Shown here piece by piece: positions 3,477-29,170 of a stretch of 29,170 nucleotides of DNA. Location: positions 137,429 through 166,598 of IMG/VR virus record IMGVR_UViG_3300031787_000010; one strand, written 5' to 3'. Each line of letters begins with the position of its first letter. Position 1 is the stretch's first letter. A model generated the notes under the pieces. It made no database searches, was not told the origin of the DNA, and was given only the letters and a program-made list of their open reading frames with translations. Position numbers and translations under genes: made by a program. The stretch comes from a virus.

Positions 3477-3479
3477 ATA

Positions 3480-3743
3480 TTATAACTGTTGTGGTATTAT
3501 TATTTGCTGTCCTGGCTGTATGAATATTGACCCATTTGCACCACCGTTAGCTCGTGCTATAATGTACCAATATTTAGGAGATCCCAAAAATCTATACGCG
3601 ATTGAATCCCATCTGTCACCCATACGAGCAACGTATTTAAAATCAGTATCAGAAGAATCGTATGCGTCTGGTATCGCAGACGTATAATGACGTTTTTCAT
3701 TATCGTCTCTGTCAATAAGTATTGGATTTATATACTTCGGCAT
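3480..3743 (-). CDS. LysM-domain baseplate protein (gp53-like)
   Basis: An 87-residue protein. Residues about 35-84 form a LysM-like fold, with the pattern YVARMGDRWDSIAYRFLG followed by a tryptophan-tyrosine helix, ARANGG, and IQPGQQIIIP. Small proteins of this design are baseplate wedge or tail-spike adaptor components in T4-like (gp53) and Mu-like (gpX) phages, where the LysM fold binds the tail tube or hub rather than peptidoglycan. It sits between the tube-initiator-like gene and the hub gene, with gaps of 3 bases on either side, which fits a structural role in baseplate assembly. Cell-wall binding is the alternative reading, but the position makes it less likely. Confidence 0.75.
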   Translation of the reverse strand: MPKYINPILIDRDDNEKRHYTSAIPDAYDSSDTDFKYVARMGDRWDSIAYRFLGSPKYWYIIARANGGANGSIFIQPGQQIIIPQQL

Positions 3744-3746
3744 ATG

Positions 3747-13003: not shown

Positions 13004-14074
13004 TTATTTTACCTCAACTGAAATCTTCTTTTTCTTTGTTGCTGTCTTACTCTTATTAGCTTTTGGAAGTTGAGTACTTTGTAATTTTAATTGCGTCTCA
13101 GCGATACGCAACTTCAACTCTAACTCCTTCACTTTATTTTCCATTTCTATTTCTTTGGAATTTACAGCAACTTGCTGGTTGGTCGATTGTGCGTTTTGAG
13201 AAGATTCTAGATTACGTTGATCTTGAATCTTTTTTGTCAGTTCCCAGTATATAGGCGGCGTTTCAAACTTACCAATTCGTTTATCAACAAATTCCCGTAC
13301 ATTTGGTTTGGTTCTATGCGTGGACTGTTGTTTACCTTCCGCGTTAGTATGAAATGGACACTTTTTACTTGAAGCAGTTGGATCACCCATAAGCGATCCA
13401 TCCTTTACTTCAGCCGGATATACTCCTCTAAAGTAGTGTTTCTGCCATACATCTGCTGAATGGTGACCCGCTCGTTGTTCGGACATATATTTTAATCTCG
13501 AAACATTCCAATTCCAGTAATCATCGTGAAATTCTTTGAATTCTGGATCGTGGAGCGAACGAATTTCTGCTTCCGTATTATCAAACACCGTCAAGTCGAT
13601 AGGGAAAATAAGCGCAATAGGATCTCCTATTTTTACTTCAAAAGATCCAGGTTGTGTAAATCTCCAATTTAGAGTAAAGGAATATCTTAACCAGTGCGCT
13701 TCTACTACCCCAGACAATGGTATAACGTTTGGCACAGGTGTGTTCGGTGCACCAGTAACGTATAGTCCGTATGGATATTCCATTTGGAATAACCATCCAG
13801 CATGCCAAGTTAAGGTACCTTCTCCAAAGTGAGACGATGGAGTTCCATAACCATCGTGGTGTTTTATTTTTACACCAGAAGGCGCATTATTTCCATCCCA
13901 CTCTGCTGTGAAGTGTGCCTCTGACAATATTTCCCACCCAAATGAATTAGCCATAGATAATGGTAAACATCTGTACGGGTTTTTATTTACTGCATCGTCC
14001 ATCCAAGGACGTTTAGATCCAGCAGGCTGTAGTCTAAACGGTCTGTCGGATGCGGGATATGCTATCATTTTCAT
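13004..14074 (-). CDS. DUF6065 family protein
   Basis: A 356-residue protein. The first 230 residues carry the family pattern: LPLSMANSFGWEILSEAHF, a WDG segment, SHFGEGTLTWHAGWLF, GAPNTPVPNVIPLSGVVEAHW, SFTLNWRFTQPG, and GDPIALIFPID. I recognise these as DUF6065, a family of unknown function often encoded by phages and found near sugar-related genes. Residues about 290-335 form a charged coiled coil, followed by a lysine-rich tail (KTATKKKKISVEVK). The start ATG at 14074 has GAGG 6 bases upstream. It follows the methyltransferase gene by 21 bases, so it may belong to the modification cassette, but its biochemical activity is unknown to me. Confidence 0.75.
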   Translation of the reverse strand: MKMIAYPASDRPFRLQPAGSKRPWMDDAVNKNPYRCLPLSMANSFGWEILSEAHFTAEWDGNNAPSGVKIKHHDGYGTPSSHFGEGTLTWHAGWLFQMEYPYGLYVTGAPNTPVPNVIPLSGVVEAHWLRYSFTLNWRFTQPGSFEVKIGDPIALIFPIDLTVFDNTEAEIRSLHDPEFKEFHDDYWNWNVSRLKYMSEQRAGHHSADVWQKHYFRGVYPAEVKDGSLMGDPTASSKKCPFHTNAEGKQQSTHRTKPNVREFVDKRIGKFETPPIYWELTKKIQDQRNLESSQNAQSTNQQVAVNSKEIEMENKVKELELKLRIAETQLKLQSTQLPKANKSKTATKKKKISVEVK

Positions 14075-14095: not shown

Positions 14096-14716
14096 TTATT
14101 TTAAATCATCTATTTTGATTAATATCATAGATCGATATGGTTCAGACGTATCTTCATCAATACAATATATAGGGTTTAAATAAAATGGATTTATTTCCAT
14201 ATTAATTTGTCTAAAATCAGAGTCTAAAATATCTTTATTTTCTATAAGATTCCTTCTACTACTGGTTAGCAAGTATGTACTTCCACTATTTTTTATGTTC
14301 TCTAGGGACTTTTTTATATTCTCATAAGAAAGATGTATAAAACAATCTCGCACTATAACTAAATCCTTTTTAGGTAAAGGATCTTCTGTAATATCTAAAT
14401 GTAGAAATTCATGCTGTGGATAATTTAGTCTGTTGTCATTGACGAATACTTCGGCAATGTCCGCTCCGACGTATTCGATTCCCGTCAAATTGACTTCTTT
14501 CATCCAATGAAAGTCACCACACGGTATGTCTAGAATTGATTTGATATTAAATGTATCAAATAATTTTGGCAATGCATTTCTTAAAGGTTTTGTAGATTCT
14601 AATGTACTACCACCACCACTTCGAGTTTCTATGCATCCCCACCCATTTGCCGTTGGATTCATAGCATGTACAGCGTGTATTATAATCTCAAATTCGTGTT
14701 TAAGTTTTTCGTTCAT
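14096..14716 (-). CDS. Class I SAM-dependent methyltransferase
   Basis: A 206-residue protein from ATG 14716. This start is preferred because it forms an ATGA overlap with the oxygenase stop; a longer reading from 14767 would overlap that gene by 55 bases. The SAM-binding motif I is ILDIPCGDFHWMK, motif II-like VGADIA follows, and VIVRDCFIHLSYENI is a motif IV region. The N-terminal SGGGSTLESTKPLR segment and the DIPCGDFHW motif are features of a family of small methyltransferases common in sugar and surface-modification clusters. The substrate is not deducible; a glycan hydroxyl or a modified peptide is plausible given the neighbours. It lacks an obvious DNA-target domain, so DNA methylation is less likely. 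Confidence 0.85.
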   Translation of the reverse strand: MNEKLKHEFEIIIHAVHAMNPTANGWGCIETRSGGGSTLESTKPLRNALPKLFDTFNIKSILDIPCGDFHWMKEVNLTGIEYVGADIAEVFVNDNRLNYPQHEFLHLDITEDPLPKKDLVIVRDCFIHLSYENIKKSLENIKNSGSTYLLTSSRRNLIENKDILDSDFRQINMEINPFYLNPIYCIDEDTSEPYRSMILIKIDDLK

Positions 14717-15243
14717 GCAAAACTCCAATGCATGAATAGTTGAACAACATGCTGGTGTGGTTCGCAAATTAAATCATCACGCCAATGTGTCATTGTTGTT
14801 CCTAACATCATACCACCATCACCTCGACCAATATTCAAAGGAACTTGATTATTTGTCTTATCAATACACCACAATGGCCATTCCTTATCTAAACTATTAA
14901 ATAGCGTAATAGACATAGTGTAATCAAGACCTTGACGATCAACGTGTTTGTGTAAAGTTCCACCATTATAATAAATGCGTCCAAACGAATTAGCGGGAGT
15001 CATTTTAACTCCCAACTCGTCTTGCAATCTGTCTGTTAATGATCGCAATGCGGCCTCAAACTCTGGATGGTTTCCACCATACGAATTATCATAAAACTTT
15101 TGGTCACCACCTTCATAAACTAAACGATCTGTAGCTTTCATGTCATACATCAACTGAGCAAAGTCGTCGCACTGCTGGTGTGTCAGTACGTCTTTAATGT
15201 ATGCATACCCATGTCGAGCAAAAAATTCTGATTGGTTGTTCAT
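14713..15243 (-). CDS. Prolyl-4-hydroxylase-like 2-oxoglutarate/Fe(II) oxygenase
   Basis: A 176-residue single-domain dioxygenase. The iron-binding HxD pair is His100-Val-Asp102 (LHKHVDRQGLDYTMSITL). The second half has IGRGDGGMMLG, then THWRDD (His153) and EPHQHVVQLFMHW (His163/His165), one of which should be the distal iron ligand; the 2-oxoglutarate-binding basic residue is not clear to me. The arrangement fits the phage-type P4H family. The family hydroxylates prolines in peptides, or other substrates in some members. It overlaps both neighbours by ATGA, so it is cotranslated with the carbamoyltransferase and methyltransferase. I infer it could hydroxylate prolines in a phage surface protein; nucleotide or small-molecule hydroxylation is possible instead. 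Confidence 0.85.
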   Translation of the reverse strand: MNNQSEFFARHGYAYIKDVLTHQQCDDFAQLMYDMKATDRLVYEGGDQKFYDNSYGGNHPEFEAALRSLTDRLQDELGVKMTPANSFGRIYYNGGTLHKHVDRQGLDYTMSITLFNSLDKEWPLWCIDKTNNQVPLNIGRGDGGMMLGTTMTHWRDDLICEPHQHVVQLFMHWSFA

Positions 15244-16796
15244 AACTGTGATCCTCTGTTTTTTTGTATAATATAATCTTCCAATATAACGGCGTCCATC
15301 TCTTTACTATCTAGAACTGTGAGTGCTTCTTTATACGTATTCAAAATTGGTTTTCCTGCCACATTGAACGAAGTATTTAATAATACACCTATTCCAGTTT
15401 TATTATGCATTTCTGTTAATAAATTATATAAAAATTCATTTTGTTTTTTAGTTACAGTTTGTACTCTCGCTGTACCATCCACGTGCACTATTGCTTCTAG
15501 TTTATTTTTATATTCATCTTTTACTCTTGGACAAAAACTCATCCAACGGCTTTCAGTATTCCATTCAAAATATTTGTTAACATCTTCTAGACGGACCACG
15601 GGAGCGAAGGGACGATAATATTCTCTACCTTTTACTTTAGCATTCAATATATCTTTTATTCCAGTAATAGCAGGATTACACAATATACTTCTATTTCCTA
15701 GTGCTCTTGGACCATGTTCACATCTATCTCGTACCACACCTACAATTTTACCAGATATAATATAGTCTGCTAATTTAGCGATGTCAAGTACTTGTGCCGA
15801 TCGTTCGTGTGCAATTCTTATTAATTCATGTCTATCCCATACTACGGGCCCAGCATATGTACAATCAATTGGTTCTGTTGGTTTGATAGTAGATGCTAAT
15901 AATCCAACCGCCAACCCACAATCATTTGGATTAGGTGGAACAAATACGTTTCTAGTTCTAGCAAGTTTGGTATTATTTAATATATTAAGCCCACACCCAC
16001 CAACTAAAATTAAGGGTAATGAAGGGTATTCCTTTAAAAATGGCGTTATCTCTTCTTCAAAAAGTTGCTCAAAGACAAATTGATTTGAAGCAGCTAAATC
16101 TTTAGCGTCTTGGCCAGTGAATCTAAATTCCTCTGGAATGTCAAGAACCTTCCTTATTGTAGTCACCGTTTCCGGTATTTTCCCATCATCCCCGCTATTA
16201 TATATAGTATGTAATTTATTGACGAATTCTTCCGTGGCGTTTCCGTAGTTTGCAAACCCCATAATTTTTCCGGCGTACACCAAGTTTCCCCAAAACGGTT
16301 CTTCCTTTCGTATATCTTCAATATAATGTGCAACCAATCCATATGGAACAGCTAAATCTCTTTTACCAGAATATATTTTTGTAATACCCGCGCGCTTATC
16401 ACCTATAAACACATTGAAAAATCCTTCATCTGAACCACCATCAGCTGATACTATTAACGCATTACTATATGGGGATTGGTATAATCCAGAGTATGCGTGA
16501 GCTGTGTGGTGTGGTAACCATGTGTATTTTTTAGCGGGAAATATTTTATAGTATTCTTGGTGCACGGAATTATATATTACGCTTTCATATTCCGTTACTC
16601 CATATTTTTGATTAAAGTAGTTTTTTATTTCGTGAATCACTGCTATATTATATGGCTCTCTTATGTTATAGTAAAACCATAATGCGCAATTTTTTATTGA
16701 AGTAAATCTTTCTACTTCCACTACTTCTAAAAGTTTGTCATCTTTTGATATAGCTATTGTTGCATTATGAGAACCAAACATTCCTATATTAAACAT
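15240..16796 (-). CDS. NodU/CmcH-type carbamoyltransferase 1
   Basis: A 518-residue protein. I place the start at ATG 16796 (MFNIGMFGSHNAT) rather than an upstream ATG at 16877, because it aligns with the start of the paralogue at 17573-19132 and reduces the overlap with the upstream gene to 8 bases. The N-terminal ATPase-like domain has HHTAHAYSG and SADGGSDEGFFN; the central region has GGCGLNILNNT and NPNDCGLAVG; the C-terminal domain has EHGPRALGNRSILCNP, EYYRPFAPV, and NTSFNVAGKPI. These are hallmarks of enzymes that use carbamoyl phosphate and ATP to make carbamoyl adenylate and then carbamoylate a hydroxyl group, as in nodulation factors and cephamycins. In this setting the hydroxyl is probably on a sugar. 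The end overlaps the oxygenase gene by ATGA. Confidence 0.92.
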   Translation of the reverse strand: MFNIGMFGSHNATIAISKDDKLLEVVEVERFTSIKNCALWFYYNIREPYNIAVIHEIKNYFNQKYGVTEYESVIYNSVHQEYYKIFPAKKYTWLPHHTAHAYSGLYQSPYSNALIVSADGGSDEGFFNVFIGDKRAGITKIYSGKRDLAVPYGLVAHYIEDIRKEEPFWGNLVYAGKIMGFANYGNATEEFVNKLHTIYNSGDDGKIPETVTTIRKVLDIPEEFRFTGQDAKDLAASNQFVFEQLFEEEITPFLKEYPSLPLILVGGCGLNILNNTKLARTRNVFVPPNPNDCGLAVGLLASTIKPTEPIDCTYAGPVVWDRHELIRIAHERSAQVLDIAKLADYIISGKIVGVVRDRCEHGPRALGNRSILCNPAITGIKDILNAKVKGREYYRPFAPVVRLEDVNKYFEWNTESRWMSFCPRVKDEYKNKLEAIVHVDGTARVQTVTKKQNEFLYNLLTEMHNKTGIGVLLNTSFNVAGKPILNTYKEALTVLDSKEMDAVILEDYIIQKNRGSQL

Positions 16797-17571
16797 ATTT
16801 TCGTAAAACCTTATTGTGAAATTGTATGTACTCTTCCGTACTACTGATTCTAAATCTATACGCAAAATACTTTTCATTTGCTATTATGTCATCGACGTAA
16901 TCTACTAACGGGCCACCGTTATCGCCTAAACTTGTAGCGGATGTTTTTACATCTTGATGTACTTCGTCCCAGACGGCATAATTTAATTTATTAAATAGTA
17001 TTACTCCCACACCAAGATCTTCCATAGATAACGGATACGGTAAAGATAAATATTCTTCTTTATTGTTTACTAATTGTTGTACACAATCTTTTGATAGATA
17101 ATTAAAACTTCCTCCGCAAAAATAATACTCATTGTTGTACATATTTCGTGCACCATCATATTGTTTATCTTTTCTTTCCAGTGAATCTAGAAATTTGTGC
17201 ATCTTTTTAATATCAAGGTAAGTCGTATTACAAATTCGAACTATATAATCAAATTCTAAATTATTAAGACACCACTCATATGCTATGATAAGTTTTTGAT
17301 TACGTGGATCTGTAAGAGGATTGCTTACTACATCTTGTACCCCACACACAAGAATATTATTACCGTGGTTATCATACATAATCGCAGAACCCTTGGCGGG
17401 CGTTCCACTTAAATGTGAATACGGTTTATCTTCTAAATCATAACCTCCGTAATAATGAATAACTGTTACGTCTGGGTGTTTTACTCTTGCCCATGTACTT
17501 TTTGCTAACGCATCTATTGCATTATATTCAAAATGCCACGTTGATTGGTTTAGTACTATAATTTTAGTCAT
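16789..17571 (-). CDS. Galactosyltransferase-like (GT31-like) protein
   Basis: A 260-residue protein with a glycosyltransferase A-like layout: an N-terminal IIVLNQSTWHF strand, FDYIVRICNTTYLDIKK in place of a DxD region (no clear Asp-x-Asp), YYFCGGSFNYLSKDCVQQLV (the acceptor-side 'GG..Y.LS.D' element of Fringe/galactosyltransferase-like enzymes), and SMEDLGVGVILF (an 'ED..vG' motif). These last two elements are typical of GT31-like transferases. The missing DxD could mean a different metal site or an inactive form. It starts one base after the stop of the second carbamoyltransferase and overlaps the first by 8 bases, so it is firmly in the cassette. Confidence 0.6.
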   Translation of the reverse strand: MTKIIVLNQSTWHFEYNAIDALAKSTWARVKHPDVTVIHYYGGYDLEDKPYSHLSGTPAKGSAIMYDNHGNNILVCGVQDVVSNPLTDPRNQKLIIAYEWCLNNLEFDYIVRICNTTYLDIKKMHKFLDSLERKDKQYDGARNMYNNEYYFCGGSFNYLSKDCVQQLVNNKEEYLSLPYPLSMEDLGVGVILFNKLNYAVWDEVHQDVKTSATSLGDNGGPLVDYVDDIIANEKYFAYRFRISSTEEYIQFHNKVLRKYV

Positions 17572-17572
17572 A

Positions 17573-19132
17573 TTAATCCTTTTTTATATAATAATTTTCC
17601 AAAATCAACCCATCCATTTCCACATTTTCTAGCATCCAGACAGCATCTCTGTATGTATTCAGAATTGGTTTTCCTGCGATATTGAAGGATGTATTTATTA
17701 ATACACCGACTCCTGAAAGTCGTTTTACTTCACCTAATAGGTGATACAGAAAAGAATTTTGCATTTCTGTTACTGTTTGCAATCTAGCCGTGTTATCGAT
17801 ATGTGTGACAGATGGTAAAATTGATCGGTATTCCGTTTTTACTCTTGGGCTAAATGTCATCCAACGTGCTTCACCTTCCCAATCAAAATAAGTATTTGCA
17901 TCTTCCAATCTAGTTACGGGTGCAAACGGACGATAATATTCTCTATGTTTGACTTTTGCATTTAGTATATCTTTCATACCTACAGTTGGCATGCAAAGAA
18001 TACTTCTGTTTCCCAATGCCCTAGCCCCGTGTTCAGAACGACCACGAACAATTCCAATAATTTTTCCAGAAATTAAATCTTCTGCTAATTTTGTGAAATC
18101 TACTTCGGTTGCATTATATTTGTTTACGTACTCATGTAATAAATGTCTATCCCAAACTTCAGGTCCGATATAAGTGGAATCAAATGCATCCGATGGCTTT
18201 AAAAACCCTAACATAAATCCTAAACTCAATCCTCTATCGTCTGGATTTGGCGTTACATGCGTCTTTGTTAATTTATTTACTTGTGTGTTATTCAGTACAT
18301 TTAAAGCACATCCACCAGTTAAACATAATTTGTCATCACTACCTATGATATCTTTGTATGATAACTTTTCAAACAATTGCTCAAACGCATATTGAGAAGT
18401 TCTGACTACATCCACTTCTAACTGGCCAGTTAACTCATCTGGATAACCTAATTTTTTATAATTGTTATACTTGTCCTCGTAAGTAGAATGATGTCCTTTG
18501 TAGTATTCTAAAAAATTATTTATGTTATTGTGTAAAATTTTACCGTATGCTGACAATCCCATCAACTTACCCGAATGTACCAGATATCCTTGAAATCTAT
18601 CTTGTTTGCTCAATGAACTACAATAAAATCCAATTTGTGCATATTTTTCTCCGATATTATAATCAGGTTCCGTTCTATATAATGTGACTCCATTCTGTCT
18701 AGTTGCTTTATAAAAATTAAAACACCCATCATTACCACCACCATCAAAACTAATAATTGTTGCTTCTTTTAAATTAGTTTGATAAAATGCATTATACGCG
18801 TGTCCTTCTTGGTGACCCATCTCTATTAAATTTTTTGCGTTAAAAATATCTAAAACACTTCCGTGTGCAGACCAATATCCACCCGTGAGTACTTCCAAAT
18901 CTGTAGGGTTACATATTAGATTTTGGTATTTGTCTGCACCATATTTTATTTTGAAGTATAGAAGTATTTCTTTTACAGCATGTATAGGATTATGAGTGGT
19001 AGGTAGATACCACGTTAAACTTATATTTTTAACGTTTAGCCATCTTTCCAATTCCACAACTTCTAGAATTTCATCATCTCGACTTATCGTAAATGACGCA
19101 TTGTGTCCTGTGTATATTGATAAATTAAACAT
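17573..19132 (-). CDS. NodU/CmcH-type carbamoyltransferase 2
   Basis: A 519-residue protein, paralogous to the one at 15240-16796 over its whole length and with the same motif order: GHQEGHAYNAFYQ, SFDGGGNDGCFNF, GGCALNVLNNT, NPDDRGLSLG, SEHGARALGNRSILCMP, EYYRPFAPV, and NTSFNIAGKPI. All expected active-site histidines and glycine motifs are present in both copies, so both look functional. Their difference in the N-terminal domain suggests different sugar acceptors or positions. The gap to the GT60-like gene upstream is 12 bases. Two carbamoyltransferases in a single phage cassette is unusual in my experience. Confidence 0.92.
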   Translation of the reverse strand: MFNLSIYTGHNASFTISRDDEILEVVELERWLNVKNISLTWYLPTTHNPIHAVKEILLYFKIKYGADKYQNLICNPTDLEVLTGGYWSAHGSVLDIFNAKNLIEMGHQEGHAYNAFYQTNLKEATIISFDGGGNDGCFNFYKATRQNGVTLYRTEPDYNIGEKYAQIGFYCSSLSKQDRFQGYLVHSGKLMGLSAYGKILHNNINNFLEYYKGHHSTYEDKYNNYKKLGYPDELTGQLEVDVVRTSQYAFEQLFEKLSYKDIIGSDDKLCLTGGCALNVLNNTQVNKLTKTHVTPNPDDRGLSLGFMLGFLKPSDAFDSTYIGPEVWDRHLLHEYVNKYNATEVDFTKLAEDLISGKIIGIVRGRSEHGARALGNRSILCMPTVGMKDILNAKVKHREYYRPFAPVTRLEDANTYFDWEGEARWMTFSPRVKTEYRSILPSVTHIDNTARLQTVTEMQNSFLYHLLGEVKRLSGVGVLINTSFNIAGKPILNTYRDAVWMLENVEMDGLILENYYIKKD

Positions 19133-19144
19133 AACCGTTTTATG

Positions 19145-20068
19145 TTACAGAGTCTTAATTTGTTTATTTTTGAAATCTATTCCTGAAAATTGCTCGTACT
19201 CATCTAGAGTTCGATGTGTACCCAGACCGTATTTACCCAGATCACCACCTTCAAATAACCTTCGAAGTCGTTCCATCGCAACTTTATGTCTATACTGTCC
19301 AAATTCCGGTGGTAGTACGGTAAAGTGTTTTTTGTTTGGTTCGTTATGTGCTCTATGCCACGATACTATTCTATCGGGCGTGTATATATCATATCCTTTT
19401 GTATACGATCTTACGGCTAAAGCAAATTCTTCACCAGTATAATAATGTAATGGATCTTGTTCCACTTCAACTACCCATTGGCCGTCTGAAAATATAAACC
19501 CACCATATAGTACGGGGACTCTTACATTTTTATATCCAGTACGCTGTTCATTTTCATATCCACCGTATTCAATCCAGTATTGACTAGTTATATTTTTTAT
19601 TTTAGGTATTTGTATTTTATCCATATCAAATATATTACTAAACAAATAGTCTATACCATATTCGTCATTTCTAGAGTATGATGGAGATAAATATGAAATT
19701 ATAGGTTTTGGTGATATGTTTCTTAAATTTTCTATATTTCGTATTAACACGGAGTCCCAATGTTTTATAACCCGAGTGTGTGAATCTATTTGTAATGCAT
19801 ATCTTTCATTTGCATAATATTTCTGTGCTATATTTCTTGCCCAACAACCACCTCTTGATTCTGTCCAATGGTGCAATTCTAAATGTATTGGATACTTGCC
19901 GAGTAAATGATTGATGCAGTTTTCATTCGTCTCTGGCTCTTCATCAAATTGGTGCACTACAGAAAATACTAATCTTTGAGGATTTTCGGCTTTACTAATT
20001 AGGTCTAGTATGGTATGTGGTAGTTCATAATCACGAAAACTTGCAATTGCTATAAAGATTTTTTCCAT
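19145..20068 (-). CDS. Skp1-type GlcNAc-transferase family protein (GT60-like)
   Basis: A 307-residue protein matching the PF11397 'Glycosyltransferase (GlcNAc)' pattern: IFIAIASFRDYELPHTILDL at the start, GGCWARN (73-79), LQIDSHTRV (DSH at 95-97, the metal-binding DxD equivalent), VPVLYGGFIFSDG in the acceptor region, a WHRAHNEPNKKHF segment, and a C-terminal GLGTHRTLDEYEQFSGIDF. In Dictyostelium the founding member adds GlcNAc to a hydroxyproline of Skp1. Bacterial and phage members have unknown acceptors. It is followed closely by a carbamoyltransferase and preceded, 2 bases away, by a three-domain transferase with a second domain of the same kind. The family is clear; acceptor and donor are inferred. 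Confidence 0.88.
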   Translation of the reverse strand: MEKIFIAIASFRDYELPHTILDLISKAENPQRLVFSVVHQFDEEPETNENCINHLLGKYPIHLELHHWTESRGGCWARNIAQKYYANERYALQIDSHTRVIKHWDSVLIRNIENLRNISPKPIISYLSPSYSRNDEYGIDYLFSNIFDMDKIQIPKIKNITSQYWIEYGGYENEQRTGYKNVRVPVLYGGFIFSDGQWVVEVEQDPLHYYTGEEFALAVRSYTKGYDIYTPDRIVSWHRAHNEPNKKHFTVLPPEFGQYRHKVAMERLRRLFEGGDLGKYGLGTHRTLDEYEQFSGIDFKNKQIKTL

Positions 20069-20070
20069 TT

Positions 20071-22842
20071 TTAGATCCGTCTAAATTTAATTGACAAGTA
20101 ATCCTCCAATTCTTCTAATGAACGAGAATATGAATTGGAAGTATTAAAAAGTATATCATTTATAATTTCAACAGACTTGTCTGTTATTTCATTATGATTT
20201 GTTTTTCTGTATACGGTGCCGTCCAAGTCATGTATATTATAATTATGCCATACTGTCGCCTCAGCGGGTAATTTTATATCCCATCCTTTTAAATAAGATA
20301 AGAACGTTTGTGCTTCTTCTTCACCTTTAGATTTTATTTGCATAGGTACTTGTATATCTCCAGTCCATTCGATTGGTGCAAATATAAATCCTGCACCTAT
20401 CCATTTGTTGTCGAATATTTCGTACTTATCCATTGCTACTAAATTTTTTGTAACTAATCTGTTATCTATTGGATTAACATTTTCAACATCCATATGTCCA
20501 CTAATAACTAATGGGGCATTAGTTTTTATAGATAAAAAGTTTTTTTCCGTATCGGTAAGTTCGAATCCATTTGGATATGTAGAGAATACCACTTTTTTGT
20601 TTGGCATACTTCTATATTGATTTATTAGTATACCATCCCAATTTTGTTTAAATCTACTGTGTGCGTCAATCTGCAAAAAGAAATCCTCATCAGTTATTAA
20701 TTCTTGCTTTATTCTTTCACGCGCCCAAACAACTCCCAGAGAATCTTCATCTGGAGTAAATAATATTTTCATGTTTGGAAAATTTTCATTAAGTAATTCT
20801 TTATGATATTCTTCGTTATCTTGAAGATGGACACCTACCATAATTCGTGATGAGTCTTGTGCCGTTTCATATAAATTTCTTAATGTAGTTAATAACTGGC
20901 GGTCGCAATAGCTAGCTACAGAAACAAATATTTTTTTAGGTTTAAAATCCCAGGCGTCTTTAAATTCTCGTGCCCAATTACCTATGAATCTTTTTGTTTC
21001 AGTAGAATCACATTGCTCATCTTGATTAAACGTACTAGTATTGATATAAAAGTTTTTATCTTCTATATCTTTCATATATCCTCGAAGTCTGTATATATAC
21101 GAGGAAAGAGTGGAATAATCGTTACCTATAAACTTTATAGATCTTGTACATATGAGTTGTTCTATTATCGGAATAAAATTATAGTGCACATTTTCTAGTT
21201 TTGCTAAATGTGCAATATCTTCGTAATAGTGTAACTGATAGTGTTGGGCAAGTTTGTCAAAAAATGATTTATCGGTATGGTCTGTTGCAATATACAATGT
21301 GGAACCATCTGGTATTATATCTTTGATATTATCATAGATTTGCTCCGCTGTAATGAACAAATGCTTATACTGAAAATCATTTCTTCTTATGTGGATTGCA
21401 TAGTATTTTCTGTCTCCCAACACTTCTATTGCCCGCCAACCCAATTCCATTAATTTAGGAGTGTAATGAACGTGCCGTGCTATTAATTTTTTAAGTTCTA
21501 CGTCAAATGTCGTATATATGGTTTGATAAAAATTTCCTAACAATTTACCATCAAAAAATAAACACTCATTGTGACCAAGTAGTTCAATCATATCAGTTAC
21601 AGAACGTCCATGTTTAAATGATTCGTCTGGTAGTGATTCTGTAAAATTTAAAACGTGAAATTCTGGTTCTGTTATGGTTTTACTAATTTCTGCAACTGCT
21701 TCGAACGTAGGAGTAATATTTTTCAGTCTACAGAAATCAAAAAAAGACATTGTTTTTATTCCTAAATCAGACATATCAAAAAAATCTTCTAGCCCAAACG
21801 TATCTTTTAGCAAATACATATTATACTTTGGAGGTAGTACTAATGTCTTATTCGTTAAATATGCTATACAAACCGCCAGTTCTAATGACATTCGTATGTT
21901 GTTAAATCCACCCGGCCACGGTTTTAAAATAATATATCCGGTTTTACCAGTGTAATTGTTAAATATATTAGAAAAATTCCATTTTAAATGGTACAGATAA
22001 TCCGTTCTTTCTTGTGCAATATTAGATAACAAAAGTTCATCTAATTTGTTTCTTGCTCTATTTACGTCTATTTGCATATTCTGATTGTGTGTGTAATCTT
22101 GTTTGAAAAATAAAGAATTATTATTCGCATCAAATATTTCATTCGGGAAATGTGCGATAAGACTGACTTCATTACTGTCATTTTCTTTCCATGCCGTACA
22201 GAATCCAAAGTCCTCTACGTATTGAATTTTTAAATTGTTCTTTTTAACTGCGTAATCCAATCCCCACATTTCAGATTCCCATCGTTTCGTTTCACGTTTA
22301 ATTTGCTCTGAACTGGTAATATAATCGTCTATTATTTTTTTTAATGTACCAAACTTAATACAAAATGGATACATCACACCAAACCCGTCTCTATCATTTT
22401 CAATTTTCCAATTCTGTAACGGTGCGTAGTGAATAAATCTTTGTGCTATAATTTCGTTATATTTAGGAACAAATTCTACTGGATGTAAAAATATCATATC
22501 TGGGTCTAGAAATAATAAATTATCTTCGTCTTTAAAAGAAGAGTTATCGCATAACCATTTTATCGACATGAATTTATTTGGTATAGCTCCCCACCAATAT
22601 TTTTCACCACGTTTTGATTCTGATTCTAGATTTTCCCATTCTGTAGCATAATCTGGTAAATCTATTACTACTACATCCGTGTCTGTGTATTCATCCAACG
22701 GTCTATTTCTACCCATCGGATCTGCACATCGTAATAACACAAGTTTACCTGATTGCTTTACTTTCTTCCGTGACCAGTTTAATAAACGACACTGCCACGA
22801 TTGATACTCACTATTACTAGTTGGTACTATGATATAATCCAT
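20071..22842 (-). CDS. Three-domain glycosyltransferase (HPAT/SGT-like, O-FucT-like, GT60-like)
   Basis: A 923-residue protein with three transferase domains. Domain 1 (1-250): NKFMSIKWL (89-97), FLDPDMIFLHP (111-121), and WESEMWGLDYA (188-198), followed by HFPNEIF; this order resembles plant-type hydroxyproline arabinosyl- and serine galactosyltransferases, at moderate confidence. Domain 2 (300-600): KPWPGGFNNIRMSLELAV (307-324), TLVLPP (333-338), AIHIRRNDF (482-490), LYIATDHTD (516-524), and FIGNDYSTLSSYIYRLRG (571-588), the layout of GDP-fucose protein O-fucosyltransferases. Domain 3 (637-910): KKIFVSVASYCDR, VVWARER, LQIDAHSRF (DAH at 726-728), GAGFIFAP, and a final SRSLEELEDYLSIKF, a GT60-like GlcNAc transferase. 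It overlaps the epimerase gene by 26 bases. One polypeptide could therefore add several sugars in sequence to one acceptor. Confidence 0.8.
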   Translation of the reverse strand: MDYIIVPTSNSEYQSWQCRLLNWSRKKVKQSGKLVLLRCADPMGRNRPLDEYTDTDVVVIDLPDYATEWENLESESKRGEKYWWGAIPNKFMSIKWLCDNSSFKDEDNLLFLDPDMIFLHPVEFVPKYNEIIAQRFIHYAPLQNWKIENDRDGFGVMYPFCIKFGTLKKIIDDYITSSEQIKRETKRWESEMWGLDYAVKKNNLKIQYVEDFGFCTAWKENDSNEVSLIAHFPNEIFDANNNSLFFKQDYTHNQNMQIDVNRARNKLDELLLSNIAQERTDYLYHLKWNFSNIFNNYTGKTGYIILKPWPGGFNNIRMSLELAVCIAYLTNKTLVLPPKYNMYLLKDTFGLEDFFDMSDLGIKTMSFFDFCRLKNITPTFEAVAEISKTITEPEFHVLNFTESLPDESFKHGRSVTDMIELLGHNECLFFDGKLLGNFYQTIYTTFDVELKKLIARHVHYTPKLMELGWRAIEVLGDRKYYAIHIRRNDFQYKHLFITAEQIYDNIKDIIPDGSTLYIATDHTDKSFFDKLAQHYQLHYYEDIAHLAKLENVHYNFIPIIEQLICTRSIKFIGNDYSTLSSYIYRLRGYMKDIEDKNFYINTSTFNQDEQCDSTETKRFIGNWAREFKDAWDFKPKKIFVSVASYCDRQLLTTLRNLYETAQDSSRIMVGVHLQDNEEYHKELLNENFPNMKILFTPDEDSLGVVWARERIKQELITDEDFFLQIDAHSRFKQNWDGILINQYRSMPNKKVVFSTYPNGFELTDTEKNFLSIKTNAPLVISGHMDVENVNPIDNRLVTKNLVAMDKYEIFDNKWIGAGFIFAPIEWTGDIQVPMQIKSKGEEEAQTFLSYLKGWDIKLPAEATVWHNYNIHDLDGTVYRKTNHNEITDKSVEIINDILFNTSNSYSRSLEELEDYLSIKFRRI

Positions 22843-23788
22843 ATTGTTCCCGTATCCAGTTAAATGTACGAGTCATTCCTTCTTCTAATGTAATAGCAGG
22901 TTCCCAATTTAACAATGCCTTTACTTTGTCATTATGTGAGTTTCTTCCACGTACTCCCAACGGTCCTTCAATATGTTTACGTTGGAGTTTGACACCAGCT
23001 GCATTTTCAATAATCGTAATTAATTCATTAACGGACACCATTCGGTCTGATCCAATATTAAATGCCGATTGATGTGGACTATCCATTACACGAATTGTTC
23101 CTTCGACTGCATCATCAATATACAAAAACGACCGTGTTTGCTCACCATCACCCCACACTTCAATCGTATCAGAGTTAGTGTGTAAAGCATGTGCGACTTT
23201 TCTACAGAGCGCGGCCGGTGCTTTTTCTCGTCCACCTTGCCACGTACCTACTGGACCGTAGACATTGTGGTATCGGACAATACGGGTTTCAATTCCAAAA
23301 TCTTCGGTGAAATGACGACACATGCGTTCCATAAACAGCTTTTCCCAACCATACCCATCTTCGGGATCGGCTGGGTATTCTGTACCTTCAATTAAAGGTT
23401 CTGGTTCTGTCGTGTTTTGTTTATACACAGGATAGACACAAGCGGTCGATGCGAAGAGAAACTTCTTTGCTCCGTTTAGGTGTGCTGCTTTTAATGTATT
23501 GGTGTCTGGAATAATGGATAACATACACAATGTCTTATTGTGTTCGATAAATCCCATTCCACCCATATCACACGCTAAATGATAGACTTCATCAATACCT
23601 TGCGTGGCGTTTAGAGCAACATCGTAATCCGTTAAGTCTCCGACGATGTTTTCTGCTGACTCGGTAATTTGATACCATTTATCAAACGGCTTTTTATCAA
23701 TTGCTCGTACTGTATATATTTCTGCTAATTTCTTTACTATATGTCCGGCAATAAACCCACCGGCTCCCGTAACCAATATTGTTTTCAT
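22817..23788 (-). CDS. GDP-mannose 3,5-epimerase
   Basis: A 323-residue short-chain dehydrogenase/reductase. I chose the ATG at 23788 over one at 23794 because GAGGAA at 23795-23800 is 6 bases from the former but abuts the latter. The NAD site is TGAGGFIAG at the N-terminus, the YxxxK catalytic pair is in YGWEK (Tyr146 and Lys150), and the epimerase signatures CDMGGMGFIEHNK, STACVYP, NVYGPVGTWQGGREKAPAA, and GDGEQTRSFLYIDD are all present. They match GDP-mannose 3,5-epimerases, which convert GDP-D-mannose to GDP-L-galactose (with GDP-L-gulose). It would supply a nucleotide sugar to the downstream transferases. The reaction is well supported by motifs; the use of the product by the O-FucT-like domain is inference. 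Confidence 0.93.
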   Translation of the reverse strand: MKTILVTGAGGFIAGHIVKKLAEIYTVRAIDKKPFDKWYQITESAENIVGDLTDYDVALNATQGIDEVYHLACDMGGMGFIEHNKTLCMLSIIPDTNTLKAAHLNGAKKFLFASTACVYPVYKQNTTEPEPLIEGTEYPADPEDGYGWEKLFMERMCRHFTEDFGIETRIVRYHNVYGPVGTWQGGREKAPAALCRKVAHALHTNSDTIEVWGDGEQTRSFLYIDDAVEGTIRVMDSPHQSAFNIGSDRMVSVNELITIIENAAGVKLQRKHIEGPLGVRGRNSHNDKVKALLNWEPAITLEEGMTRTFNWIREQYGLYHSTN

Positions 23789-23794
23789 AACCAT

Positions 23795-23882
23795 TTCCTC
23801 TTAATTATTTTTCAGTATTACAATTTAGTATATTCGTACTGTACTATAATACATATTTACGTTTTTACCTCACCAATTGATT
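23795..23882 (-). promoter_or_regulatory. Longest true intergenic gap; possible promoter and hairpin
   Basis: This 88-base gap separates the repeat protein from the epimerase. The minus strand has CGTAAATATG at about 23852-23861 (TAAATA core of T4-type late promoters) and a TATTAT box a few bases downstream. An imperfect inverted repeat follows: arms at 23842-23852 and 23815-23830, the second arm carrying a 5-base bulge. Then comes the GAGGAA ribosome site. This is the most likely place for a promoter serving the sugar cassette. No T-run terminator was seen. Confidence 0.3.
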
Positions 23883-25949
23883 TTACTCACACGAACTGTT
23901 CGATCCGCCGCAATCAATATAATTTGTACACGATAATACATATTCTGTACCATTACAAGTGTACAAATCTTGGCCCACACATTGAGTAGCTCCAAAAGTA
24001 CATGTTGCTGGTGATGGTGTTGGTGAAGGTGTTTCTGGTGAAGGTGTTACCGGTGAAGGTGTTACCGGTGAAGGCGTTGGTGCTACGGGTGGGCATGGTG
24101 TATTTTGACATTGCCCAGCACAGCAATATGCACACGGTGAACAATCTTGAGCATCAACACATGGTATTGTAGGACATTGTATTTCAGGCGAAGGCGTCAC
24201 TGGCGAAGGTGTTTCCGGCGAAGGCGTCACTGGCGAAGGTGTTACTGGTGAAGGCGTCACTGGCGAAGGTGTTACTGGTGAAGGCGTCACTGGCGAAGGT
24301 GTTACTGGTGAAGGCGTCACTGGCGAAGGTGTTACTGGTGAAGGCGTCACTGGCGAAGGTGTTACTGGTGAAGGCGTCACTGGCGAAGGTGTTACTGGTG
24401 AAGGCGTCACTGGTGAAGGCGTCACCGGCGAAGGCGTCACCGGTGAAGGCGTCACCGGCGAAGGTGTTACTGGTGAAGGCGTTACGGGCGCAGGCGTTTT
24501 TGTTGCAGACGGCGTAATACTTGGAGTAGTAGTAATACTTGGCGTAATAGATGGTGTAATAGAAGGCGTTCTAGTAATACTTGGTGTTCTAGTAATAGAC
24601 GGCGTAGTGGTAATACTTGGAGTAATACTTGGTGTTCTAGTAATAGACGGCGTAGTGGTAATACTTGGAGTAATACTTGGTGTTCTAGTAATAGAAGGCG
24701 TAGCGGTAATACTTGGCGTTCTAGTAATAGAAGGTGTAGTGGTAATAGACGGCGTTGTCGTAATACTTGGCGTAATACTTGGCGTAGTTGTTATTGATGG
24801 AGTTACTGTAGTACTTGGTGTTTTAGTAATTGAAGGGGTAGCAGTGACACTCGGTGTTACTGATGGCGTTACTACTCCTTGTGTACACGGCCAACACGTT
24901 CCGAGAGTAAGTGCTTCAGCAACTGCTGTACATCCACCACCAGTAGGATCTGGATAATTATTACAGCTTGGAACTGTAGTACACTCACAAAATACATAAT
25001 TAATTGTGGTAGCAGAAGGTGTTACCGATGGAGTTGGTGTATTAGTTGGTGTCGTAGTTACCGATGGGGTTGTTGTTATTGAGGGCGTTACCGTTGGGGT
25101 AACAGTTCTAGTAGTTGTTATCGACGGCGTTATTGATGGAGTTGCTGTTATTGATGGAGTTGCTGTTATTGATGGTGTAGTTGTTATAGAAGGTGTAAGA
25201 GTAGGCGTTGGTGTTACAGATTGATTTGTTGTTTGTGTTATTGATGGAGTTACTGTTCTAGTTGGAGTTATAGACGGTGTTGTGGTAATAGATGGTGTTG
25301 TGGTAATAGATGGTGTTCGTGTTAAACTTGGTGTAACAGTTATTGACGGTGTAATTGAAGGTGTAGATGTTATAGTTGGAGTAACCGTTATTGACGGTGT
25401 TGTTGTGATAGAAGGTGTTACTGTCACAGACGGTGTAATAGATGGTGTTCTAGTAATACTAGGCGTAGTAGTAACAGAAGGTGTGGTCGTAATAGACGGC
25501 GTAGTTGTGATACTCGGTGTTCTAGTGATAGAAGGCGTTCTGGTAACTGATGGTGTAGTTGTTATAGAAGGTGTTACAGTTACACTTGGGGTAACCGACG
25601 GCGTAGTTGTTACTGACGGTGTTACTGTCATCGTCGGGGTAGCTGTCGGTGTTTTTGTTGGGGTTATGGATGGAGAGGGAATTGGATAACATAAAAAATA
25701 ATTTTCTCTACCAGAATGCGGCGGTACTGATGGGTATGTGTCATAGGCATCCGTGACCGTAGTTAACGCATTATAATAACCAGGCGGACAACTTGTAGCT
25801 TGAATTCCAGGAGTACCTTTTGGTCCTATAACACCAACCAACGCACGTGCTGCTACAACAGATGGATTGTTTACTAATGCGTAAGCAGAACTAGCTGTTT
25901 GTGCGAAGGAACCCGTAGAAGGAATACCGAATGGAAAAAATACAGCCAC
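23883..25949 (-). CDS. Mucin-like Pro/Thr/Ser repeat surface protein
   Basis: A 688-residue protein that starts at GTG 25949 (AGGAGA 6 bases upstream). Residues 1-50 resemble the start of the next gene upstream (FxPxGxPxSxSFA) and include a short collagen-like GPKGTPG. After a cysteine-containing aromatic segment, most of the protein is pentapeptide repeats: TPSIT/TPSVT type in the first two thirds and about twenty TPSPV units later. The repeats are interrupted by a cysteine-rich insert (FCECTTVPSCNNYPDPTGGG and onwards) and followed by cysteine-rich ends (CSPCAYCCAGQC; CVGQDLYTC). No transmembrane anchor was seen. Such Pro/Thr/Ser repeats are candidates for heavy O-glycosylation. It lies in the virion-protein run just upstream of the sugar cassette. 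It is probably a phage fibre or surface decoration; a host-derived adhesin is possible. Confidence 0.8.
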   Translation of the reverse strand: MAVFFPFGIPSTGSFAQTASSAYALVNNPSVVAARALVGVIGPKGTPGIQATSCPPGYYNALTTVTDAYDTYPSVPPHSGRENYFLCYPIPSPSITPTKTPTATPTMTVTPSVTTTPSVTPSVTVTPSITTTPSVTRTPSITRTPSITTTPSITTTPSVTTTPSITRTPSITPSVTVTPSITTTPSITVTPTITSTPSITPSITVTPSLTRTPSITTTPSITTTPSITPTRTVTPSITQTTNQSVTPTPTLTPSITTTPSITATPSITATPSITPSITTTRTVTPTVTPSITTTPSVTTTPTNTPTPSVTPSATTINYVFCECTTVPSCNNYPDPTGGGCTAVAEALTLGTCWPCTQGVVTPSVTPSVTATPSITKTPSTTVTPSITTTPSITPSITTTPSITTTPSITRTPSITATPSITRTPSITPSITTTPSITRTPSITPSITTTPSITRTPSITRTPSITPSITPSITTTPSITPSATKTPAPVTPSPVTPSPVTPSPVTPSPVTPSPVTPSPVTPSPVTPSPVTPSPVTPSPVTPSPVTPSPVTPSPVTPSPVTPSPVTPSPVTPSPVTPSPETPSPVTPSPEIQCPTIPCVDAQDCSPCAYCCAGQCQNTPCPPVAPTPSPVTPSPVTPSPETPSPTPSPATCTFGATQCVGQDLYTCNGTEYVLSCTNYIDCGGSNSSCE
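24183..24496 (-). repeat. 15/30-bp tandem array encoding TPSPV
   Basis: A 15-base unit encodes Thr-Pro-Ser-Pro-Val. Synonymous differences make a 30-base higher-order unit, with five exact copies in a row at 24241-24390 and a sixth nearly exact to 24420. Such identity implies recent expansion by slippage or unequal recombination, so repeat number may vary among relatives and may be misassembled. Confidence 0.95.
24508..25670 (-). repeat. Degenerate 15-bp array encoding TPS[IV]T
   Basis: Repeats of Thr-Pro-Ser-Ile/Val-Thr with variable fifth residues (T, R, P, V, A), interrupted at about 24867-25008 by a cysteine-rich insert. The period is 15 bases, as in the adjacent TPSPV array, but third positions have diverged more, so this part is older. 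Confidence 0.9.
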
Positions 25950-26166: not shown

Positions 26167-26415
26167 CTAGTTAAAATTGCAAACTTCTTTTAACGAAGGA
26201 TTTGCTCTTAACTGTAAATACTGTTCATAGGTTATTTTACAAATTCCAGGAACTCCAAGATCGCCTTTTGATCCAGAAGTACCCGACTCTGCGAAAGAAG
26301 CTGTAAATACGTACATCAAGTATTGTGCATTATTTGCGTAAGACGAAGATAAGGCAAATGATGAGGTGTATAAACTTCCAGAAGCGTATGGATAAAAAGC
26401 TGAGCTAGTAGTCAT
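26167..26415 (-). CDS. Small fibre-like protein 2 with collagen-like stretch
   Basis: An 82-residue protein rich in Ser, Ala and Tyr (SSFALSSSYANNAQYL), a style common in phage tail-fibre and baseplate-fibre proteins. A short Gly-X-Y segment (GSKGDLGVPG) precedes a C-terminal part with two cysteines (CKITYEQYLQLRANPS ... EVCNF), similar in layout to the collagen-like GPKGTPG plus cysteine segment of the repeat protein. It ends in TAG and starts 3 bases after the preceding gene. A virion appendage role is inferred from composition and position only. Confidence 0.65.
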   Translation of the reverse strand: MTTSSAFYPYASGSLYTSSFALSSSYANNAQYLMYVFTASFAESGTSGSKGDLGVPGICKITYEQYLQLRANPSLKEVCNFN

Positions 26416-26418
26416 AGT

Positions 26419-27362: not shown

Positions 27363-29170
27363 TTAGGATTCCTTCCTCAATTCACTCTGATAAAAATTAA
27401 ATCTATTGTGTTCTATAGGTGACGCAAGGAAAATTCCACTAGTTAATTCGTTTTTTCTGGTTTGTTGGAATATATGACTCATCCATGTTTGTTCGTATGG
27501 TCTAGCCCACTTTGTGTTTAAAAACATTTTTTGATTACCTTCTTTACTGACTATTTGTGGCCAATTACTGTAATAAATCTGCCCTTTAATATAAGGAGTT
27601 TCATCCACAATGTGAATTGTATCAAAAACAGTTTTTGGAGCATTTGGATCAGTTCCGTGTTCAGGTAACTTATTATAGTTAGGCCAAACTTCATTTCTAA
27701 CTGATTGTGGTACATTATACCAAGCCCACTGCACACTATTATCACCGTAAAATTCGGAAAAAGACATTTTAAAGAAATCAAATTTTTCTTTTACCATAAT
27801 TTTAACGAGCTTTTCATATAAGTTTGGTATATGTGATCTAAATCCATTTCTACAGTTCTTACCAATAAAAGACTCGTTGTTAATATGCATATCGTCTTCA
27901 AAAAACATATAAAAATCAGCGTCGGATTCGCTAAAATGTTCTGCTATAAATTGTCTACCACCACATACACCTAAATTCTCTCTATGAATTTCCTCGAACC
28001 CATACAGTTCACATAACTTATCGTATTGTTCAAATAAACTAGTATCCGTAGAGTTATTTACTAATATTTTTCTACATCGTGTAAACATAGTGTCATCAGC
28101 CGATTGTATGGACTTCACGACAGATTCAAATTGTTCTGTAGAATTAAATCCAAGAACATACAGATTTACTTTAGCAGTTTTTGGTGTTAGTTCTTTCGGC
28201 GGTAAATTTTTTATAAGTTCGTCTACGTCCTTTAATTTTTCAAAAAACGGCCATACCAAACCGTCGCCTGAAAGTTCAAATCTATATATTGTTTCTGGAT
28301 ATAGATGTGCCATTACAGCAAATATACTTTCTTCCGTACCCATAAAATTACTTTCTAGGGTTTGTCGTAAAAGATTATAATAATTACTATTTGCCGTTGC
28401 TATTGAAGTTTTGGAACCACCAAAAAATCCACCACGACACACATATTTTAAATGTTGTGTTTTGGCATATCTTTCAATATCAGTACGTGGAAAGCCATGA
28501 ACTTCATATCCATCCTCATACGGATATGATAAGAATATAAACGCATCAACTTCTTCGGTTAATTTTGGTAGATTTTCTAAAACGACATCGTGATGAAAAT
28601 ATCCTGGATGTACTGTCGTGGAGATGCCTGCATCTAACCAATAAAAATAATTTGTATTAAATGGATTACTGATTGATGCATCGTTCAGTAAAAACATCTT
28701 GCTCATAACTACCGGATTATAAAACTCTAAATTTGCTTGTGGAGAGTTTTCTAACCATGCTGCCTGTTTCTTCCAATTTTCAGTATTTCTAATTTCTTGT
28801 ACTTTTTCGTAGAAGGGAAACCAAGTTTTTAGTTCTTCTAACTCCATAACTTTGACATGAGTATTTTTTCTTGATCTATGCTTCCAAACAAATTCTTCAT
28901 CTTCTTTTGCTACATAAATGTATAAATTTGAAGGAGTTTTGAGTAACTCTGCAAATTTGTCAAGATAATAAGAATACGGACGTTTAAAATCATCACCGAG
29001 TGACCCTCTACCTAAATTCCAAAGAGCGGTTACTATGGTCGTATCAGAATTTTCTAAAGTTTTGAATTCTTCAACAGTATTGTCTACTTGTTGTGAAGAT
29101 TCTTGCTCAGTTTTAGGAATCTCGTCTATCGTGAATCGTAAAACTTTATCTCCGAGATTTATAACGAAAG
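27363..29170 (-). CDS. HtrL/YibB-like plus GT2-like glycosyltransferase (5' end missing)
   Basis: The frame is open from the right edge to TAA at 27363, giving 601 visible residues. An ATG at 28847 exists but is internal: the sequence upstream in the same frame (SDTTIVTALWNLGRGS ... RPYSYYLDKFAELLKTPSNL ... EDEEFVWKHR) is the expected start of the HtrL/YibB (WlaTC-like) family, and continues after 28847 with YWLDAGIST, HPGYFHHD, and CRGGFFGG. The last 250 residues form a second, GT2-like domain: VNLYVLGFNSTEQFESVVKS, ILVNNSTD, ENLGVCGGRQFIAEHF, and FFEDDMHI, whose EDDM is the probable metal site. It is likely a bifunctional sugar transferase acting on the same surface glycan as the downstream cassette, although the virion proteins separate them. 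Confidence 0.8.
   Translation of the reverse strand, partial: FVINLGDKVLRFTIDEIPKTEQESSQQVDNTVEEFKTLENSDTTIVTALWNLGRGSLGDDFKRPYSYYLDKFAELLKTPSNLYIYVAKEDEEFVWKHRSRKNTHVKVMELEELKTWFPFYEKVQEIRNTENWKKQAAWLENSPQANLEFYNPVVMSKMFLLNDASISNPFNTNYFYWLDAGISTTVHPGYFHHDVVLENLPKLTEEVDAFIFLSYPYEDGYEVHGFPRTDIERYAKTQHLKYVCRGGFFGGSKTSIATANSNYYNLLRQTLESNFMGTEESIFAVMAHLYPETIYRFELSGDGLVWPFFEKLKDVDELIKNLPPKELTPKTAKVNLYVLGFNSTEQFESVVKSIQSADDTMFTRCRKILVNNSTDTSLFEQYDKLCELYGFEEIHRENLGVCGGRQFIAEHFSESDADFYMFFEDDMHINNESFIGKNCRNGFRSHIPNLYEKLVKIMVKEKFDFFKMSFSEFYGDNSVQWAWYNVPQSVRNEVWPNYNKLPEHGTDPNAPKTVFDTIHIVDETPYIKGQIYYSNWPQIVSKEGNQKMFLNTKWARPYEQTWMSHIFQQTRKNELTSGIFLASPIEHNRFNFYQSELRKES

Follow-up and report, generated by a model that had tools for sequence, protein, structure and literature searches.

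Extensins and arabinogalactan proteins are plant hydroxyproline-rich glycoproteins modified by prolyl 4-hydroxylases (P4Hs) and hydroxyproline arabinosyltransferases (HPATs), and 4-hydroxyproline is said, in the title of a 1999 report by Eriksson, to occur in viral proteins. Plant hydroxyproline galactosyltransferases take [AO]n Ala-Hyp peptides as model acceptors and refuse [AP]7, according to PMC4687291, while PMC8724618 places hydroxyproline-linked glycosylation otherwise in plants, green algae and protists, and describes fusions of pathway enzymes in the protist Skp1 pathway too. For phages, published work describes mycobacteriophage virion proteins glycosylated at the C-termini of capsid and tail-tube subunits (Freeman 2023; PMC12619734), EGLN3-like 2-oxoglutarate (2OG) oxygenases with prolyl-hydroxylase-like folds that are widespread in phages of marine bacteria (Phold paper, PMC12774648), and, in a Baltic Sea survey, P4H among the abundant viral auxiliary genes, whose viral use 'remains cryptic' (PMC9301287). 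Here we analyse a stretch of 29,170 nucleotides (hereafter the window; record bases 137429-166598) of a freshwater virus of bacteria, IMG/VR record IMGVR_UViG_3300031787_000010 (166,598 bp), in which an oxygenase with a predicted P4H fold (OXY), several glycosyltransferases and other sugar enzymes are encoded beside a protein built of proline-rich arrays. With moderate confidence, we favour a reading in which the phage hydroxylates its own arrays and then modifies them by hydroxyproline- and Thr/Ser-linked glycosylation, L-galactose or L-gulose addition, carbamoylation and methylation.

The putative substrate is an array protein of 688 aa (23883..25949, minus strand) composed of TPS[I/V]T arrays, then (TPSPV)n, then a Cys-rich tail. 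An earlier note on this DNA, made from the sequence alone, had described a Pro/Thr/Ser repeat protein, and we count 20 TPSPV and 49 TPS[I/V] units in it, with Thr and Ser making up ~37% of the Pro-rich stretch. The 20 TPSPV units differ from one another only by synonymous codons, and two other strains, whose oxygenase and GT60 proteins (GT60 being the family number of the Skp1 GlcNAc-transferase) are identical to those of the window, carry 18 and 16 units, their array proteins being shorter by 10 and 20 aa. This suggests that the repeat is maintained as a protein sequence while its copy number varies. Further Pro-rich or Pro/Thr/Ser (P/T/S) array proteins occur in the same genome (L006:2303-4348, L007:244-1398 and L007:1402-2310), among them those at record positions 2303-4348, which ends in a Cys-rich tail like that of the window protein, and 20244-21398, near a gene that we label baseplate-wedge; both L007 proteins lie near this baseplate-type gene. 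The array proteins are probably virion appendages. A record taken as the same species (G001), which seems to extend past the end of the present one, encodes a 1,549-aa array protein and, after it, two more PF11397 enzymes (L210).

Comparative genomics provides the strongest support for a link between OXY and such arrays. Relatives of OXY (42-72% identity) are encoded beside arrays of TPSPV (window and L213), PTPTPT (L228), PTPTPE with Ig domains (L229, L232), APAPAP (L234) and VPAPVPAP (L235), which, to judge from their sequences, share mainly a proline rhythm. When an alternating-Pro array is scored as a 40-aa stretch with at least 40% Pro, and lineages are delimited at 80% identity over 1,500 bp, arrays are found in 6 of 8 close-clade OXY lineages (window counted) vs 0 of 43 mid or distant ones (Fisher p 1.6e-6). 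Of the other two close-clade lineages, L227 begins within the C-terminus of such a protein, a short way upstream of its HPAT gene, and L226 begins within the epimerase gene, which in the window and in L213 comes after the array. Across 12 array proteins Pro alternates with T, S, V, E or A and accounts for 40-51% of the Pro-rich stretches, and PP is rare (1-4 per protein). Since the (AP)n and (VPAP)n arrays contain only ~2-3% Ser/Thr, an O-glycan on them would need hydroxyproline. A collagen-like (GPT) protein at L227:8740-9588 has an N-terminus resembling that of the window array protein; one repeat type may have been exchanged for another within a single protein.

A P4H of family PF13640 adjoins OXY or is fused to it in 4 of the 8 close lineages, in 6 of 12 mid-clade loci and at other array loci as well; the close lineages without one at OXY are the window, L213, L226 and L227. 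OXY is fused to another domain in L229-L233, the extra domain of L229 matching the P4Hs 5iax (E 2e-26), 2jig and 3gze (both E 5e-25), and likewise in L214, L308, L309, L311-L319 and L061, while the P4H is the next gene to OXY in L228, L234, L235, L021, L050, L045 and L067. A minimal module is found in L228, where a (PT)n array, an HPAT-family transferase, OXY and a P4H on the opposite strand are spaced by a few bases. L234 combines an HPAT-like gene (below the Pfam cut-off), P4H, OXY and the (AP)n array, and L235 places P4H-OXY and a fusion of O-FucT and carbamoyltransferase beside the (VPAP)n array. In L050 a JmjC/cupin-type protein (L050:7256-7804), perhaps a third oxygenase, directly follows the P4H and OXY genes. 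The linkage across lineages strongly supports action of the cluster on the repeat protein, and the pairing of OXY in relatives with PF13640 P4Hs and HPAT-family enzymes, beside alternating-Pro arrays of variable sequence, supports proline hydroxylation as part of the system.

OXY of the window (14713..15243, minus strand, 176 aa) was recognised from its predicted structure, its relatives and an HxD...H triad. Pfam searches at E 1 and at E 10 returned nothing for it, PF13640 included, and a sequence-only search of the PDB gave no credible match. The triad (H100, D102, H153) is invariant in 32 of 32 aligned sequences, as are Y91, W122, G148, W154, R155 and F170. The AlphaFold2 model (pLDDT 96) has as its top PDB match the Pseudomonas putida P4H (4j25; Z 18.2, rmsd 2.8, 167 aligned), followed by PHD2 and a Dictyostelium PHD (Z 17.5); the chlorovirus P4H 5c5t scores Z 16.8. 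This double-stranded beta-helix fold fits a peptidyl-prolyl hydroxylase and is not proof of one. The P4H-like oxygenase with an HxD site proposed by the earlier note thus stands as to fold and triad; because PF13640 is not matched we call OXY an oxygenase of P4H-like fold and do not file it as a P4H. The protein falls in PHROG 2954/3531, labelled 'ferrochelatase', a label that looks wrong and that is carried by 30 of the 30 matches listed, of 120 matching records. The 'ferrochelatase' of KJ019102.1 (AIX32120.1, L013:7998-9086) consists of two 2OG-Fe(II)-type domains, the second being PF13640 (E 7e-17). Such labels have masked the OXY family in cyanophage annotations.

Among the glycosyltransferases of the cluster, a 923-aa protein (20071..22842, minus strand) contains an HPAT domain at residues 1-290, an O-FucT domain at ~300-590 and a PF11397 domain at ~640-923, with matches to PF23452 (27.6 bits for the whole protein and 31.1 for the domain alone, cut-off 23.9), PF10250 (99 bits, cut-off 31.5) and PF11397 (109 bits, cut-off 21). 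D113-P-D115 of its HPAT domain is invariant in 11 sequences, 7 of which match PF23452 at E <=0.01, and GT-A enzymes are among the Foldseek matches of the model (pLDDT 79), a kind of comparison that the earlier note had called for; a DxD motif in a GT-A fold is a feature of HPATs. The HPAT-family enzyme of L228 scores 31.6 bits and has a probability of 86% in profile comparison. A profile built from the 11 homologues alone found neither L228 nor L234 at E 0.01, so the HPAT label of these two rests on Pfam, plus profile comparison for L228; with both added, the profile finds L240, a mid-clade OXY locus. Profile searches with the HPAT-domain and GT60 alignments returned no solved relatives, and among 50,697 phage records tblastn matched the HPAT domain in none and the window GT60 enzyme in 3.

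Downstream lies a single-domain PF11397 (GT60-type) enzyme (19145..20068, minus strand, 307 aa; 169 bits, cut-off 21), in which D95-S96-H97 is invariant in 15 aligned sequences; DxH/DxD is the metal-binding motif of this family. The epimerase (22817..23794, minus strand, PF01370) is nearest to GDP-mannose 3,5-epimerase (phmmer to 2c59, E 4.7e-91), aligns with it at the catalytic Cys, Y/K and K (in the plant enzyme, Cys, YxxxK and Lys) and could supply GDP-L-galactose or L-gulose. Two NodU-like carbamoyltransferases (17573..19132 and 15240..16877, both minus strand) each have the N and C domains PF16861 and PF02543, the second probably starting near 16799, and a methyltransferase (14096..14767, minus strand; PHROG 3382, E 2e-44) probably starts near 14716. 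The earlier note had listed two PF11397 domains, an HPAT-like and an O-FucT-like domain, an epimerase making an activated sugar, two carbamoyltransferases and a methyltransferase, and these are borne out, along with the strand-uniform run: every ORF of the cluster is on the minus strand and neighbouring genes mostly overlap or sit a few bases apart. Its 'GT31-like' label for the 260-aa product of 16789..17571 (minus strand) was dropped, as searches up to E 1 in Pfam and up to E 0.01 among the PHROGs returned nothing; the protein, perhaps a glycosyltransferase, has a homologue in the same cluster of L213 (E 7e-93).

GT60 genes have a wider association with arrays of their own. From repeat scans we drew 50 records (G000, the window's own, and 49 of 117 listed contigs, array-rich first; loci L157-L193 were left out), of which 27 encode PF11397, 8 of these (G000-G007) being the window species or near it. 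A P/T/S array lies within 6 kb of GT60 in 42 of 80 loci, corresponding to 31 of 57 lineages vs 2 of 43 control lineages (p 3.9e-8; flanks reached up to 6 kb for GT60 and up to 10 kb for controls, and a ThyX-based control with 5 loci, 1 with a P/T/S array, was too small and was not used). In 18 of the 80 loci the array ends <=100 bp upstream of the GT60 gene. Of seven fully mapped loci (L211, L212, L216-L220), 6 have an array, 5 have two PF11397 genes and 2 a single one, all 7 have HtrL_YibB, 2 have a carbamoyltransferase and none has OXY. The arrangement in which an array gene precedes a single PF11397 gene or a pair of them (L304-L383, L211, L212, L216-L220) is widespread in environmental phages, mostly without hydroxylases. 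The DNA pattern for TPSIT-type repeats matched at least 119 stretches in viral_contigs and the reversed pattern 1, an excess over chance. When 84,980 species of bacteria and archaea were scanned by pattern, two marginal 48-residue matches turned up and nothing else.

Repeat type and OXY are themselves associated: OXY occurs in 5 of 10 TPSPV-type array lineages vs 0 of 12 TPSIT-only ones (p 0.0096). This test used 21 records with at least 2 TPSPV-type hits, a pattern that also takes TPTPV (10 of the 21 lack an exact TPSPVTPSPVTP), and 14 TPSIT-only records with at least 3 hits among the matches listed; OXY was sought through PHROG 2954 and through the OXY alignment, 8 records were manually combined under the window species, and the others were merged at 80% identity over 800 bp. 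All 8 records of the GT60 clade nearest the window enzyme contain PF13640. Given these counts and those around GT60, the GT60-array combination is a widespread phage system, probably Thr/Ser-linked, with the hydroxylase-HPAT layer found in one part of it. Both repeat types and both enzyme sets occur in the window virus. We infer two layers of array glycosylation, a Thr/Ser type generally and a hydroxyproline type in the OXY close clade.

Gene content and linkage are read directly, and the OXY fold is predicted; the steps joining them are proposed as follows. OXY would hydroxylate prolines in alternating-Pro (TPSPV) stretches, in many relatives together with a PF13640 P4H that is its neighbour or fusion partner, and the HPAT-family domain would begin a glycan on the resulting hydroxyproline. 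The GT60 domains may add N-acetylhexosamine to Thr/Ser of the TPSIT stretches, to hydroxyproline, or to both, while the epimerase would yield GDP-L-galactose or L-gulose, the likely donor for the O-FucT-type domain, and the carbamoyltransferases and methyltransferase would cap the sugars. The product could be a stiff, sugar-coated fibre, comparable to the hydroxyproline-rich glycoproteins of plants, with a role in shielding the virion or in tuning adsorption.

Several observations weigh against this scheme, above all against its hydroxyproline step. No PF13640 P4H was found in the window virus or in 8 records taken as the same species, and OXY has no conserved K/R at 163-168, where P4Hs bind 2-oxoglutarate (the basic anchor being expected ~9-11 residues past the distal His), R155 at H+2 being invariant instead; for these two reasons hydroxyproline formation in the window virus itself can be put forward only conditionally. 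The fold is also shared, as SnoN, PiuC and BesD-type enzymes score Z 16-17, within ~2 Z units of the P4Hs, and weak matches to PF13532, an AlkB-type family, occur in 3 of 10 members of the OXY family (best E 0.0028). The HPAT match of L234 reaches 19.7 bits, under the Pfam cut-off of 23.9. As to linkage, 16 of 21 mid or distant OXY records gave no alternating-Pro match, the matches in cyanophage KJ019102 are all antisense to a neck-protein gene (those located in cyanophage MH412654 are antisense to annotated genes as well), and among 32 further records with a TPSPV-type motif, many of them single-hit, OXY was found in 3. On the GT60 side, PF13640 occurs in 1 of 42 records other than the nearest clade, and 18 GT60 records with alternating-Pro arrays have none. 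Collagen-like proteins, another candidate P4H substrate, are encoded in 5 of the 18 remaining loci that hold OXY or an array (4 records); in the stretches of the window virus that were scanned there is no GXY run of >=6, and collagen was dropped as the substrate of the window oxygenase. Finally, in the cultured jumbo Xanthomonas phage XacN1 (L014:7989-11706) GT60 is directly beside a carbamoyltransferase, and the surrounding 17 kb contain neither a P/T/S nor a Pro-rich array. The proposal of the earlier note that the phage modifies its own repeat protein by way of proline hydroxylation is thus supported in part, by the linkage across lineages and the P4H/HPAT pairing, and weakened by the scarcity of PF13640; in a survey of related phages such as it recommended, the association with arrays holds in the close clade and not among most mid and distant records.

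Among other explanations, the glycosyltransferases might simply decorate Thr/Ser of the arrays in mucin fashion, with OXY hydroxylating Pro for stiffness or acting elsewhere and no hydroxyproline-linked glycan being formed. Loci in which GT60 accompanies TPSIT or TP arrays while OXY and P4H are both absent are indeed the commoner kind (OXY or P4H occurs in 15 of 80 GT60 loci), the window's Pro-rich stretch itself contains Thr/Ser at ~37%, and the Skp1 enzyme is related, according to PMC8724618, to a Golgi counterpart that initiates mucin-type O-glycosylation. However, the window encodes an HPAT-family domain, and the arrays beside P4H-OXY in L234 and L235, with their HPAT-like gene and O-FucT-carbamoyltransferase fusion, offer almost no Thr/Ser; we consider a mucin-type system alone unlikely, though by no means negligible. 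That OXY modifies a host protein and lies in the cluster by accident would agree with its best fold match, since the P. putida P4H structures include one complexed with EF-Tu, and with the many distant OXY records that are array-free, but linkage to alternating-Pro arrays recurs in differing gene orders, which makes such an accident very improbable.

The enzymes could alternatively build a host-surface or free glycan, for example in an alteration of lipopolysaccharide, and no glycoprotein. A second sugar cluster in the same virus, with rmlA, rmlB and gmd homologues, and the array-free neighbourhood in XacN1 are in keeping with this, yet PF11397, HPAT and O-FucT are families named after protein acceptors and array genes adjoin GT60 genes across lineages; we regard this explanation as improbable. 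Phage carbamoyltransferases can act on DNA bases, and a base dioxygenase, glycosyltransferases and carbamoyltransferases could together hypermodify DNA, an idea to which the weak PF13532 matches of the OXY family and a TAGT match that stays below threshold (21.8 bits against a cut-off of 27.5), in the C-terminal PF11397 domain, lend something. PF00303, the thymidylate-synthase-type hydroxymethylase family, was nevertheless matched in 0 of 20 records while 9 of 14 control genomes were positive (Tet_JBP likewise matched 0 of 20 records, but gave 0 matches in the control genomes too), and the linkage is with repeat proteins, so that hypermodification is the least probable of the explanations weighed here. 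Modification of the phage's own arrays, beginning with proline hydroxylation, remains the reading that we prefer.

The wider setting is that of a tailed phage, as marked by tail-protein matches (including baseplate-hub and tape-measure) and a T4-type replisome recognised by ORF reading. In transcript order on the minus strand, two unassigned ORFs that look structural to us (26167-27306, from ORF reading) are followed by the array protein, the epimerase, the 923-aa glycosyltransferase and the single-domain PF11397 enzyme, and then by a carbamoyltransferase, the 260-aa protein, the other carbamoyltransferase, the oxygenase and the methyltransferase. At the edge of the window, an HtrL_YibB protein with a second domain (27363..29170, minus strand, PF09612) extends past the record end, and the same domain pair is found in GT60 clusters of other phages. 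A DUF6065 protein (13004-14074, E 2e-64) adjoins the oxygenase region, a neighbourhood kept in L213, L226 and L227. A large baseplate-region protein (3-3476) has a stretch that we read as resembling a D-Ala-D-Ala carboxypeptidase (M15-like; GTSNHGWALAFDLS...WHWEF). For a stretch separating the array gene from the epimerase gene, folding was at chance level, as were promoter and terminator scans.

If correct, the reading would supply a substrate for viral P4Hs, which are at present classed as auxiliary metabolic genes without a known use; the modules name a concrete substrate class and downstream chemistry that can be tested directly with short synthetic peptides. P/T/S arrays beside GT60 further suggest a widespread glycoprotein coat of environmental phages, with a bearing on adsorption, shielding and virion stability. 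More tentatively, we propose that complete hydroxyproline-linked O-glycosylation pathways in bacteriophages, comprising a prolyl hydroxylase pair, an HPAT and more sugar enzymes, make alternating-Pro fibres of a plant-like kind. A literature search on phage hydroxyproline glycosylation found no report, which is weak evidence of absence as subscription literature was thinly covered; to our knowledge no hydroxyproline-linked pathway has been described in prokaryotes or their viruses, and this would, if true, be the first.

Compared with described phage systems, the locus differs from mycobacteriophage glycosylation, for which the available part of the source states no hydroxylase or Pro-array linkage (PMC12619734), and from the EGLN3-like enzymes of marine phages, for which the corresponding part names no substrate or cluster (PMC12774648). 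The Dictyostelium Skp1 pathway (P4H, GT60 GlcNAc-transferase, Gal/Fuc) resembles it in joining a P4H-fold oxygenase with PF11397 enzymes, whereas the phage system has repeat proteins where Skp1 has one Pro, adds HPAT, carbamoyl- and methyltransferases, and is phage-encoded. The vCPH of chlorovirus PBCV-1 is likewise a virus-encoded P4H fold (5c5t, Z 16.8 to OXY), but that virus is algal, and no linked hydroxyproline-glycosylation module is known in it. With plant hydroxyproline-rich glycoproteins the locus shares clustered non-contiguous Pro, the HPAT family and, in its relatives, P4H, and it differs from them in its GT60 and O-FucT-type enzymes, its carbamoyltransferases and its viral genome.

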